From positions 248,001 through 312,000 of the forward strand of contig NC_009515.1 in the NCBI RefSeq assembly GCF_000016525.1: a stretch of DNA of 64,000 nucleotides, written 5' to 3'. The first letter of the stretch is position 1. Every line of letters begins with the position of its first letter. Below are positions 20,296 to 24,496 of this stretch, piece by piece. The notes under the pieces are model-generated. The model did not search any database. It had not been told where the DNA came from and saw only the letters and a list, made by a program, of their open reading frames with translations. Made by a program: the position numbers and the translations under genes. This DNA is from Methanobrevibacter smithii ATCC 35061. Its GTDB lineage: Archaea > Methanobacteriota > Methanobacteria > Methanobacteriales > Methanobacteriaceae.

Positions 20296-20478
20296 TCAAT
20301 ACCACAGTTTTTTCATTTGAACATCAATTTCAGAGTAATTTACATCAGGATTATTCTGAGAAGAATTGTTAACTGAAATGCTTTGTGAATCTTCACCAGG
20401 CTGTGCTGTTTGCTCAACAGCTATCAAAACACCGCCAACAGCCATAATTACAATTAAAAATAAAACCCAGTTATTCAT
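20296..20478 (-). CDS. Small single-pass membrane protein, unknown
   Basis: A 60-residue protein: one hydrophobic helix at residues 4-21, then a Ser/Asn/Gln-rich polar tail outside or inside the cell. No family recognised. Its GGAG ribosome site lies inside the last codons of the YjbQ-family gene, which ends three bases before the ATG, so translation is probably coupled. That coupling is the main reason to believe it is a real gene. Confidence 0.6.
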   Translation of the reverse strand: MNNWVLFLIVIMAVGGVLIAVEQTAQPGEDSQSISVNNSSQNNPDVNYSEIDVQMKKLWY

Positions 20479-20480
20479 GG

Positions 20481-20894
20481 TTATTCTCCGATTACAGTTA
20501 TATTAATTATCCTGTTGTGTCTTGGCCCGTCTAATTCTATAAAAAATACTGACTGCCAAGTTCCCAAATTTAATTTATTGTTAGATATTGGAACAGACTC
20601 ACTAGAAGAGAGTAAAAATGATTTTAAATGAGATTCAGCATTATTATCAATATTATCATGTTTATAACTAAATTTATTGGAAATTATATTAGATAACACA
20701 AATTCCAAATCTTCAAGCAGACCTTCCTCATTTTCATTTACACAAATAGCTGATGTGGAATGTTTGGAAAATATATTTACAATTCCATTACTGATATTGG
20801 AATTAGCTATTATTTCATTGATTTTAGATGTTATATCAATAATTTCAAAAGTCTTATTTGTATCCAAATTAATCTCAATATTTTCAATTAGCAT
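20481..20894 (-). CDS. YjbQ/UPF0047 family protein
   Basis: A 137-residue protein with the family core: GIVNIFSKHSTSAICVNENEEGLLEDL in the middle, cut here for length, and GTWQSVFFIELDGPRHNR with the C-terminal metal-binding His/Arg region. Family members have been tied to thiamine-phosphate synthase activity in vitro, and the natural role is unclear. No ribosome site is visible, and a TTTAAATA box lies about 30 bases before the ATG, so the mRNA may be leaderless. Its first codons and promoter are duplicated at 22618-22696. Cotranscribed with the 60-residue membrane protein. Confidence 0.85.
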   Translation of the reverse strand: MLIENIEINLDTNKTFEIIDITSKINEIIANSNISNGIVNIFSKHSTSAICVNENEEGLLEDLEFVLSNIISNKFSYKHDNIDNNAESHLKSFLLSSSESVPISNNKLNLGTWQSVFFIELDGPRHNRIINITVIGE

Positions 20895-20936
20895 TATAAA
20901 AATATTATATGAAACTAGTATTTAAAAATTAAAAAA
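20854..20936. repeat. Copy A of an ~80-base imperfect direct repeat flanking the ATPase gene
   Basis: This segment covers the first codons and the promoter of the YjbQ-family gene. A second copy at 22618-22696 keeps the order TTATTTGTATCCAAATTAA, then ATATT, CAATTA, ATATTATAT, and AGTATTTAAAAATTAAAAA at the far end, with scattered substitutions. The two copies flank a 1.7 kb unit that holds the DUF4143-type ATPase gene. Confidence 0.8.
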
Positions 20937-20946
20937 CAAATAAAAC

Positions 20947-21019
20947 CTGTAAAATTTTACAGACTCGAAAAATTAAGAAAAATTCATAATCTAAATAAAA
21001 TAACCTGTAATATATTACA
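20947..21019. promoter_or_regulatory. Two 14-base palindromes TGTAA-N4-TTACA
   Basis: TGTAAAATTTTACA (20948-20961, extended by one pair to CTG...CAG) and TGTAATATATTACA (21006-21019) are perfect palindromes 58 bases apart, each preceded by ACC. The second overlaps the stop codon of the ATPase gene. They lie 54-125 bases upstream of the YjbQ-family start on the same strand. Either they are operators for that gene or the first is the stem of a terminator for the ATPase gene; its 7-base arms would leave no loop, which favours a protein site. Confidence 0.45.
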
Positions 21020-22469
21020 TAAATGCAAATGTTTCAGGAGGTAAATAAATAATATTATCTTCTTTGACAATATTTGATTTGGTATTTGAAATAATTATAC
21101 CATGAGAAGAATTATATGTACTAATAGCACGTTTAATTTGACTTTTATCCTTTTTACCACAGCTTACTTCAATTGGAATAGGTTTTTCTAATCCTCTTTG
21201 AACAATAAAGTCAACATTTTTCCCACTACTTTTTTTATTGCTGTCATCATAGTATATTTTATAATTTATGTGATTTTTATTATCCAAATCATGAAAACTT
21301 GAAGCTACATAAGTTTCAAGCAGTTTTCCCATATATGCTGTTTCATCCTCAAAGGTAGCATTGCCTATATTTAATATAAGATTATGTTTTAAACTTGATG
21401 TTGCAAAAAAATATTCATAAGGTTTTGTTGTTCGTTTTACTGATGAAGTAAACGGTTCAATATGAAATATTAATTGTGTTTTTTCAAGAATATTTAATAC
21501 TTTAGTGACTAAAGCAATCTTGGCATCAAAATGATTTGAAAGAGAACCTTTTGAAACTTCACCGGGATTTTGAAAAGCAAAAAAATTCAAAATCTGAAAA
21601 GCAAGATATTGTGTATCATTATTTATACCTCCAATATTGGCCATATCCGTTGTAACAACTTTATCCACCATATCAACAATTTTTTTAGTTATATCATTAG
21701 TATTTTGATAAAATGAAGATGGAAAACCTCCAAATTCTAAGAAATTTTTCCATTCAGACATGTCATAGTTTGAAAAACTTGAATATATATTAATTATTCT
21801 TCTTTCTAACTCTGCAATATTTTGCACATTTCCGTCAAAAATCATTTGAATTAATGACTCTGAAATATCATTTTTAAAATTTCCATATTTTAATTTTAAA
21901 TGTTCTGAATATGTTAACGGGTAAATTGGAATATTTAATAATCTCCTTGCAGCATCAGGATTATAAGAAAGTTTTAGTGCAGATGATCCACTGAAAATCA
22001 TGAAAATATTTTTAGTACCGTCAAATATTAATTTTCCATTTAATACCCATTCTTTATCATATTGTGCTTCATCAATTAAAATGAATACTGGTTTAGATAA
22101 TGTTTCAATTATTGAATTATGATATGTTTCTAAATAGGAATTGACAACACTAAAAATATCCGCATTACCTATTTTTTTTAATCGATCACAAGAAAAATAC
22201 AAAATATTTTCAGGAGATATCCCTCTTTCTTTTAGAAGATATTCATATACCTGAAATAGCAGAGTTGTTTTTCCAACATCACGTACCCCCGGTAAAACAA
22301 GAAAACGATTTATATTATCTCCTTCAAGAAAATTATCAATATATTTTATAATATTATCATAATCAGAACGTTTATTAAATTTTTTATCTTTGTGTGTTAA
22401 CTCCTGATTTAATTTCATAGGTACTGACAATATTTGATTTCTAATATATTTATTTTGCAATTCGTTCAT
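21015..22469 (-). CDS. AAA ATPase with DUF4143 domain
   Basis: A 484-residue P-loop ATPase. Walker A is PGVRDVGKTTLL near residue 60, Walker B is VFILIDEAQ, and the sensor-like FSGSSALKL follows. A winged-helix/DUF4143 region continues to a nuclease-like C-terminal patch, VDFIVQRGLEKPIPIEV, that resembles the restriction-endonuclease-like fold of this family. Such ATPases are numerous in archaea and anaerobic bacteria, often as accessory or horizontally moving genes with unproven function. GGGGG precedes the ATG. It is bracketed by a duplicated piece of the neighbouring YjbQ gene, which suggests that it was inserted. Upstream there are repeated TATATAAATAACTAT words. Confidence 0.85.
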   Translation of the reverse strand: MNELQNKYIRNQILSVPMKLNQELTHKDKKFNKRSDYDNIIKYIDNFLEGDNINRFLVLPGVRDVGKTTLLFQVYEYLLKERGISPENILYFSCDRLKKIGNADIFSVVNSYLETYHNSIIETLSKPVFILIDEAQYDKEWVLNGKLIFDGTKNIFMIFSGSSALKLSYNPDAARRLLNIPIYPLTYSEHLKLKYGNFKNDISESLIQMIFDGNVQNIAELERRIINIYSSFSNYDMSEWKNFLEFGGFPSSFYQNTNDITKKIVDMVDKVVTTDMANIGGINNDTQYLAFQILNFFAFQNPGEVSKGSLSNHFDAKIALVTKVLNILEKTQLIFHIEPFTSSVKRTTKPYEYFFATSSLKHNLILNIGNATFEDETAYMGKLLETYVASSFHDLDNKNHINYKIYYDDSNKKSSGKNVDFIVQRGLEKPIPIEVSCGKKDKSQIKRAISTYNSSHGIIISNTKSNIVKEDNIIYLPPETFAFM

Positions 22470-22617
22470 TGTTTTGCCCCCTCAAAATAATAACTATTAC
22501 TATATATAGTCATAGTTATTTATATATACTACTATTTTTAACAGTTATAGTTATTTATATATAACTAACCTTTTTAATCATCATAGTTTTAAAATTTAAG
22601 GTTACATCATCATTTAG

Positions 22618-22696
22618 TTTATTTGTATCCAAATTAAACCTAATATTTCCAATTATGAAAATATTATATAAAACCAGTATTTAAAAATTAAAAAAA
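22618..22696. pseudogene. Copy B: decayed start of the YjbQ-family gene
   Basis: Same orientation as copy A, with about five bases lost exactly where the start codon should be, plus substitutions, so nothing can be translated from it. The homology ends where the YjbQ reading frame would continue (22617 and below). It is a relic of the gene's start and promoter, left beyond the ATPase gene. Confidence 0.7.
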
Positions 22697-22717
22697 AGAA
22701 AAATGAAAAAATGTTTA

Positions 22718-24496
22718 TCACATTTTATTTTTACGTTTATATCCTATTATTAATAAAACCAATAAAGCGATTATTGCAAGAATAATAACTCCTGATGTAT
22801 TTTGAATTACTTTAGATATTTTATTTGGAGACACTAGCTCATAGGATTTTCCTTCTTTTGATGAACCGTCATCACTTGGAGAACCACTGCTGTCTGAAGA
22901 TTTTGCTGCACTTTGATCTCCTTTAGCCATAGCATCTTTACCGCTTAAAGATTCATATTTCTGATAGTAATCAGAACTATTTGTTCCAAGATTTTGTGAA
23001 AATTCATCAGAGTTTTTGATATTTGCAATACCACTCTCACCAGAAGCATCTCCTGAACCAGAACTGTCACCAGTTTTATTACCTGAGTTATCACCATCAG
23101 AACCAGACGGTTTGCCGTCAGATCCCATGTTGTCATCTTTACCAGAATCACCATTACCTGAATCGTCTTTTTTATTATAAGAAATTACATTCTGCTTTAT
23201 TTTTTTAATTTCCTGATTATGTTCTCCGCCAACCTGAATTTCAACTTGGTGGTCAACATTAGGATCTACTTTAATTACTGCCTTACCATTTTCCAAAGTT
23301 GCAGTATACATATTACCGTCAACTTCAACCTGAACTGCAATAGTTCCAGCTTCTTTTACTGGAGTATCATCTTCAACCATTTGAATTCCTATACCGTTAG
23401 GTAATGATATTGCATTTAACCTTAAGATTTTGGCAAGCAACAGCGGGCAGACAAATGTGTTTTCAGGGTCATCAGAATTAAAAAAATTCGGACCTAATGT
23501 AATCATATTCTGTAAAGGATTATTTTTAGCCTGGAAGTTTTCATTATGTGCAAATGAATTATATGACACATAAACTCCATTATTAGCTACAGCACTATAT
23601 GCATCCCCGAATAAAAGACCATTACCAGATTCAAAACCACCCAATTCACAGTCAGGGTTTTGAATATTGTGAATCATGGTATTTGCTTTAATTTCATCTC
23701 CCCAGGACTGACAATTTATATAAATACCATTTGTATTGTAATTAAGGAAATTATGAGTATAGGAATTGTTAAAAGATTTGCCGTATAATGAAATTCCGTT
23801 AAAACTATTATTGCAGCAATAATTTGAAGTTATATTGGAATTATCAATATCATAAATCTCAATTCCTGATCTGCCATTGAACATCATTGTGTTATTGGCT
23901 ACATAACAACTGGAAACATTTTTAAGCTGAAGCCCGTTTTCCTTGGCATTATTTAAAACATTTCCAAATAAAGTTACATTCTTTGAGTTTTTAACCAAAA
24001 CATTATTTCCGGCATCAACAATAGAATTTTCCCTAATAATGGTATTGTCCGAATTATCAACAATAACTCCATAATCTGATGATGCAGCTACAATATTAAA
24101 TCCGGATAAGACACTGCCTGCACTATTTTTTGTGAAATAAAATCCAAAAGTTTTATCAATATTTAACTCCTGAGCTTTATTGGACAGCTCTCCAGATGTA
24201 TAAACCGTGCTGTTAACATTAGAGATAATATTTACTTTTTTGTCAACAACTAATGAAATCCCCTTATATTCCTTGCTAACAAAATTAAATGTATCTCCCT
24301 GTCCAGCATTATCCAACATTGATTGAATGTCATCATTGGACAAGTCGGAAGAAACATCATAGATAGTAGTTCCCATAACAATGTCATCATTACTGTATTG
24401 TAATTCATCAGCTCCGTAGACAGATGAAATCAGGATTAAACCTAAAAGACATATGATAAAAAGATTTAACAGTTTTTTATATTTCTTTTCAATCAT
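22718..24496 (-). CDS. Membrane-anchored beta-helix surface protein
   Basis: 592 residues: signal peptide at 1-28, a NosD/CASH-like right-handed beta-helix at about 100-330 with repeated NNTIxxNxI-type rungs (IRENSIVDAGNNV, SGIEIYDIDNSNI), a beta-sandwich-like segment near 390-430, then a Gly/Ser/Asp-rich low-complexity linker (about 440-500), and a C-terminal hydrophobic helix (about 563-584) followed by YKRKNKM. This is the classic layout of a cell-surface protein anchored in the archaeal membrane, with the linker crossing the pseudomurein wall. Unlike the two other beta-helix proteins in the window it has an anchor and lacks their C-terminal repeats. Ligand unknown. Confidence 0.85.
   Translation of the reverse strand: MIEKKYKKLLNLFIICLLGLILISSVYGADELQYSNDDIVMGTTIYDVSSDLSNDDIQSMLDNAGQGDTFNFVSKEYKGISLVVDKKVNIISNVNSTVYTSGELSNKAQELNIDKTFGFYFTKNSAGSVLSGFNIVAASSDYGVIVDNSDNTIIRENSIVDAGNNVLVKNSKNVTLFGNVLNNAKENGLQLKNVSSCYVANNTMMFNGRSGIEIYDIDNSNITSNYCCNNSFNGISLYGKSFNNSYTHNFLNYNTNGIYINCQSWGDEIKANTMIHNIQNPDCELGGFESGNGLLFGDAYSAVANNGVYVSYNSFAHNENFQAKNNPLQNMITLGPNFFNSDDPENTFVCPLLLAKILRLNAISLPNGIGIQMVEDDTPVKEAGTIAVQVEVDGNMYTATLENGKAVIKVDPNVDHQVEIQVGGEHNQEIKKIKQNVISYNKKDDSGNGDSGKDDNMGSDGKPSGSDGDNSGNKTGDSSGSGDASGESGIANIKNSDEFSQNLGTNSSDYYQKYESLSGKDAMAKGDQSAAKSSDSSGSPSDDGSSKEGKSYELVSPNKISKVIQNTSGVIILAIIALLVLLIIGYKRKNKM

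Follow-up and report, generated by a model that had tools for sequence, protein, structure and literature searches.

We found that an ATPase gene in the gut methanogen Methanobrevibacter smithii ATCC 35061 lies between two copies of the start of its neighbor, the housekeeping gene yjbQ, and that it entered this place together with its own 5' region. The window is a 64,000-nucleotide stretch of the chromosome (NC_009515.1, positions 248,001 to 312,000), in which one copy (R1) belongs to an intact yjbQ gene and the other (R2) lies beyond the ATPase gene. The two copies are probably attachment-type duplications that mark the entry of a site-specific element, which has since lost its integrase, a reading that we favor with some reserve. 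The locus is laid out as follows.

20481-20894, minus strand: yjbQ (UPF0047) gene, 137 amino acids, intact, TIGR00149; its start is duplicated and its neighbor order is conserved in the genus
20854-20936, minus strand: R1, the near copy, with the yjbQ promoter and codons 1-13/14; weak similarity runs on to 20944
20945-21019, no strand: palindromic stretch, CCTGTAAAATTTTACAG ... CCTGTAATATATTACA, between R1 and the ATPase stop codon; repeat D14
21015-22469, minus strand: AAA_14-DUF4143 ATPase gene, 484 amino acids, PDC-S01 family, the cargo of the insertion
22490-22597, minus strand: native 5' region of the ATPase gene, containing TATA-like repeats of 35 bp (D5), the 5' edge of the moving unit
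22619-22695, minus strand: R2, the far copy, a yjbQ start without start codon in the ancestral position behind the adhesin-like gene
22718-24496, minus strand: adhesin-like NosD/beta-helix gene, whose 3' end abutted yjbQ before the insertion, judging from the outgroup layout

Between yjbQ and pheT, a 60-amino-acid ORF (20296-20478) occurs in the window species and its sister species only, among the yjbQ loci compared.

The two copies are made up of the direct repeats D1 (20893-20944 and 22652-22703, 88% identity) and D3 (20854-20890 and 22619-22655, 89% identity), which are in register except for a 6-nt gap. Joined, they score 80.3 bits over 77 aligned positions with 7 mismatches and the gap; when both flanks were shuffled 400 times with their dinucleotides preserved, the highest score was 34.7 bits. 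The recurrence of about 80 bases of yjbQ promoter and first codons beyond the ATPase gene, described in the initial annotation, is thus real, and chance similarity of AT-rich background, named there as a possible refutation, can be ruled out. R1 carries the promoter TTTAAATACT. R2 retains the promoter part, and its ATG has gone through a 6-nt deletion common to the window species and its sister species. Between these species R1 differs at 1 of 83 and R2 at 1 of 77 positions, whereas R1 and R2 differ from each other at 7-8 of 77, which together with the common deletion indicates that the duplication predates the species split. Given that the whole locus has diverged by 7-8% between the two species, the single difference in R2 suggests that it is not in free decay and may be kept as a promoter, one that may now serve the ATPase. 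R2 had been called decayed and without a start codon; the loss of the start codon stands, but free decay does not. R1 and R2 are closer to each other than to any outgroup yjbQ start, and the spare start thus did not come from a distant species.

We compared the locus across the genus, using one genome per species. yjbQ is present in 58 of 60 congeners, and the order yjbQ-pheT-orf119-valS is kept in most outgroup loci. In 30 other Methanobrevibacter species an adhesin-like ORF of 200 codons or more, whose tail reads ..YGYRRK.., stops 35-72 bp upstream of an intact yjbQ. Where outgroup species lack the ATPase, yjbQ has only one start, immediately behind the adhesin-like gene, and the DNA examined at outgroup yjbQ loci, some of it on short contigs, yielded no ATPase homologue. 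In the window, ~61 bp separate the end of the same kind of adhesin-like gene from the start that R2 has lost. R2 thus holds the ancestral position, and R1 and the ATPase have been added. The ATPase is found at yjbQ in the window species and its sister (G011) only; in the latter yjbQ is 93% identical, the ATPase is 97% identical and in the same place, and R1 and R2 are both present. Since both carriers have both repeats, a unit of ~1.7 kb was inserted before their split. The single yjbQ start in ATPase-free outgroups and a repeat similarity far above AT-rich background together support insertion with landing-site duplication as the right history, as first proposed. The empty site looked for on that proposal is seen at the species level as a single intact yjbQ start behind the adhesin-like gene, and ATPase-free relatives, which might have carried both copies, show one yjbQ start only.

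The 5' edge of the moving unit can be placed. Eight or nine species have orthologues elsewhere in which the ATPase 5' region (22490-22597) is 75-81% identical, and this conservation ends ~20 bp short of R2. Several of these orthologues lie near a XerA-like gene, which indicates that the ATPase has changed place. A pair of TATA-like repeats, each 35 bp long, lies ahead of the ATPase gene (22493-22562); it is also present in orthologues elsewhere and is possibly a self-regulation site. The 3' side is unstable, with the remnant of a DDE transposase gene in the sister species and the palindromic stretch in the window species. The latter is absent in the sister species, matches the ends around an IS66-like transposase gene (G000:C1:6134-7339) and is probably an IS remnant of later date. 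As these remnants differ between the species, they are not the cause of the older insertion. The insert lacks the marks of a transposon (IS) insertion, a short target duplication and terminal inverted repeats at its ends; its duplication is ~80 bp long. The duplication is better described as a gene-end duplication of the attachment-site type than as a transposon target duplication.

Direct repeats are enriched around DUF4143-type ATPases of the genus. Taking direct repeats within 700 bp, of 57-229 columns and at least 60 bits, we found 22 of 114 distinct ATPase genes in Methanobrevibacter to be bracketed, at ~19 loci, some of which possibly represent one inherited event. Genes were called as simple ORF picks, and controls were taken either at the ATPase loci or around yjbQ. 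Of these other genes 4 of 363 were bracketed, and 0 of the 180 that lie over 3 kb away from any ATPase (p = 2e-10). By these tests 83 of the 114 ATPases have neither repeats nor an integrase. Beyond Methanobrevibacter 3 of 31 ATPases are bracketed, two of them trivially. The notion that such duplications are a footprint of how these ATPases spread therefore holds within the genus (22/114 versus 0/180). The repeats fall into several families, which rules out one mobile sequence common to all. The best-resolved ones are gene ends, namely the 3' end of a DUF1848 gene and the 5' end of a CMD gene. Duplicated gene starts, expected beside other DUF4143 genes, are thus found at CMD, but many other repeats copy a gene 3' end. 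A simple gene-start rule is ruled out, as DUF1848 and integrase 3' ends also serve, and the repeat at L184 was not confirmed as a gene start. At each of the seven loci examined, the repeat copies point the same way, regardless of how the intervening genes run. Between the copies lie ATPases, ATPase_2-like genes and toxin-antitoxin pairs of MNT/HEPN or AbrB/PIN look, the genes at these loci being named by sequence appearance. Another repeat family, with TACGAATAATTCGTA, brackets whole operons besides ATPases (L188, L218, L199, L203), with genes that appear to encode sirtuin-like proteins, flavoenzymes and regulators.

The largest repeat family, formed by the DUF1848 3' end, ties the repeats to tyrosine recombinases. 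In several genomes, the DUF1848 3'-end fragments share one breakpoint to the nucleotide, and each follows a common arm, which intact DUF1848 genes do not have. A common breakpoint with an arm is the mark of site-specific recombination. At the loci examined, the arm is confined to two settings, next to these repeats and 14-195 bp away from tyrosine recombinase genes. An intact integrase of 368 amino acids (L257) is flanked by the arm and the DUF1848 3' end, and this flank shares 91% identity over 228 bp with the repeat that brackets an ATPase at L165. At L215, same-orientation copies of the CMD 5' region bracket an integrase and ATPase module, then a second ATPase, then the intact CMD gene; an intact integrase lies at the same CMD start at L264. 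The CMD gene of L215 is, by analogy, the closest gene-start counterpart of yjbQ. Integrase homology is present within 1.2 kb of 10 of the 114 ATPases and of 0 of the 180 distant controls, and the integrase-ATPase pairs are often tail to tail, 41-75 bp apart. Many integrases also lie beside a conserved gene block (..YHGILTHNGEIKVAKGDVE.., MSFENTKQTIFTGTELDYEE.., ..ALLKKYIKDN..), found among L249-L263 for example at L251, L253, L254, L256-L258, L260, L261 and L263; the block with ..YHGILTHNGEIKVAKGDVE.. is probably a separate integrated element family.

The yjbQ locus shares with site-specific integrative elements the bracketing direct repeats, the intact target gene and the empty site, and differs in having no integrase; by analogy we class it as a putative remnant. 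Neither the ATPase flanks nor the spacers searched by BLAST contain integrase homology in either species, and BLAST of the spacers revealed no link to the known DUF1848-type arm. In 67 genomes neither an element with a yjbQ-start attachment site nor a second yjbQ-start site was found. yjbQ shows one insertion event only; breakpoint recurrence is seen instead at the DUF1848-targeted repeats. As no integrase or arm survives at yjbQ, the mechanism proposed there rests on analogy, and we infer on this basis that an integrase acted at yjbQ itself. The ATPase with its 5' region would have been inserted into the first yjbQ codons on the lineage ancestral to both carrier species, in a site-specific reaction of the tyrosine recombinase kind. 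The element would have supplied a spare yjbQ promoter and start (R1), leaving yjbQ intact, and the original start would have ended up beyond the ATPase (R2). Later, the integrase gene would have been lost from between R1 and the ATPase tail, given that comparable elements have it in a tail-to-tail arrangement with the ATPase, facing the target gene. The end state would be an integrase-less module flanked by attachment sites, resembling a CIME.

The same layout would result if a small circle with the ATPase and part of the yjbQ start had integrated by homologous recombination, in a Campbell-type single crossover with no dedicated recombinase. It is a serious rival, as a 2.9-kb integrase-less chromosomal circle has been reported in the window's species, excised with borders inside genes and packed in vesicles by an unknown mechanism (PMC12134362), and R1 and R2 coalesce within the lineage as such an event would have it. 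However, ~80 bp is short for homologous exchange, and in the well-resolved cases the common breakpoints at DUF1848 and the integrase-linked arms favor site specificity. We thus regard circle integration as unlikely, though well worth keeping in mind. If the DNA had been cut in a staggered way or nicked at two points ~80 bp apart, repair synthesis with capture of ATPase DNA would likewise leave near-equal copies of local sequence, as a very long target duplication, and a single locus cannot separate this from integration. Elsewhere, however, several genomes have repeats at identical sites and with common arms, which random breaks would not produce, making this origin improbable. Least probable of all is a tandem duplication of yjbQ in which the ATPase replaced most of the first copy: it would explain a piece of the gene start next to the complete gene, but BLAST detects no yjbQ 3' remnant between the ATPase stop and R1, and the two-step history would have to be repeated at each of the several unrelated genes that show this gene-end pattern.

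The inserted gene itself belongs to a widespread family. Its product matches AAA_14 (81 bits) and DUF4143 (56.2 bits), both over the Pfam cut-offs, and the PDC-S01 models (best E = 8e-30), the same family models as for the PDC-S01 defence candidates in PADLOC (PMC12988326). By these matches, it is a candidate defence ATPase, with an unproven anti-viral role. The parts consulted of that study place S01 fourth among prokaryotic defences by frequency and treat prevalence, phylogeny and cross-domain transfer, not integration sites. Sequence searches returned no significant relative among solved structures. The predicted model (pLDDT 86) resembles as a whole AAA+ proteins such as ORC/Cdc6 and Apaf-1, and its C-terminal part matches winged-helix proteins by fold. 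The conserved residues D420, E434, K440 and Q444 would suit a nuclease, and no structural match confirmed a nuclease fold for DUF4143. Carriage by a virus finds no support, as no relative was found in phages or viral contigs. A 34% identical ATPase is encoded on the Methanosphaera plasmid pNP174 (L314), near nucleotidyltransferase/HEPN genes.

We compared the locus to known integrated systems. The dusA islands (PMC4482086) also target the 5' end of a protein gene, are bounded by direct repeats and displace the original 5' end, while the new 5' end keeps the gene working. They are, however, bacterial, contain an integrase and have att repeats of ~21-28 bp, whereas the yjbQ case is an integrase-less archaeal locus with a ~80 bp repeat and essentially one cargo gene. 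CIMEs are cis-mobilizable islands without integrase, flanked by attL and attR, as the ATPase module is by att-like direct repeats. They accrete serially with repeats in one orientation, as do the arrays in the genus. Known CIMEs derive from conjugative elements; our module is CIME-like in its layout and putatively mobile. Archaeal integrons (PMC9668308) also consist of small modules separated by same-orientation repeats. In the genus arrays, in contrast, the repeats are duplicated gene ends with an arm, and recombinases lie beside the cargo rather than at one array end. The same integrase seeds matched an integrase at the end of a cation efflux gene (L249:6313-7476), which fits the published M. 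smithii provirus Msmi-Pro1 (PMC8371274); the ATPase module, in contrast, has no viral genes.

About a fifth of the DUF4143 ATPases in the genus are scarred by repeats, and several scars contain an integrase attachment site. The literature searched contained no mobility mechanism for PDC-S01, and the scars with a matching integrase family offer a concrete and testable route for its spread in Methanobrevibacter, as well as a means to trace the origin of such genes and of neighbors traveling with them. It is possible, though we would put it forward tentatively, that PDC-S01 ATPases are a principal cargo of a large and largely unrecognized class of very small archaeal elements, which land in the starts or ends of protein genes, form arrays and shed their integrase to leave orphan defence genes. 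Such elements, if real, would consist of one tyrosine recombinase and one defence or toxin-antitoxin module. We also noted a tail-to-tail pair of DUF4143 ATPases (G000:C1:1844523-1847356 and G011:C1:74206-77039), of which the sister-species copy contains one ATPase that is a pseudogene with 16 internal stops.
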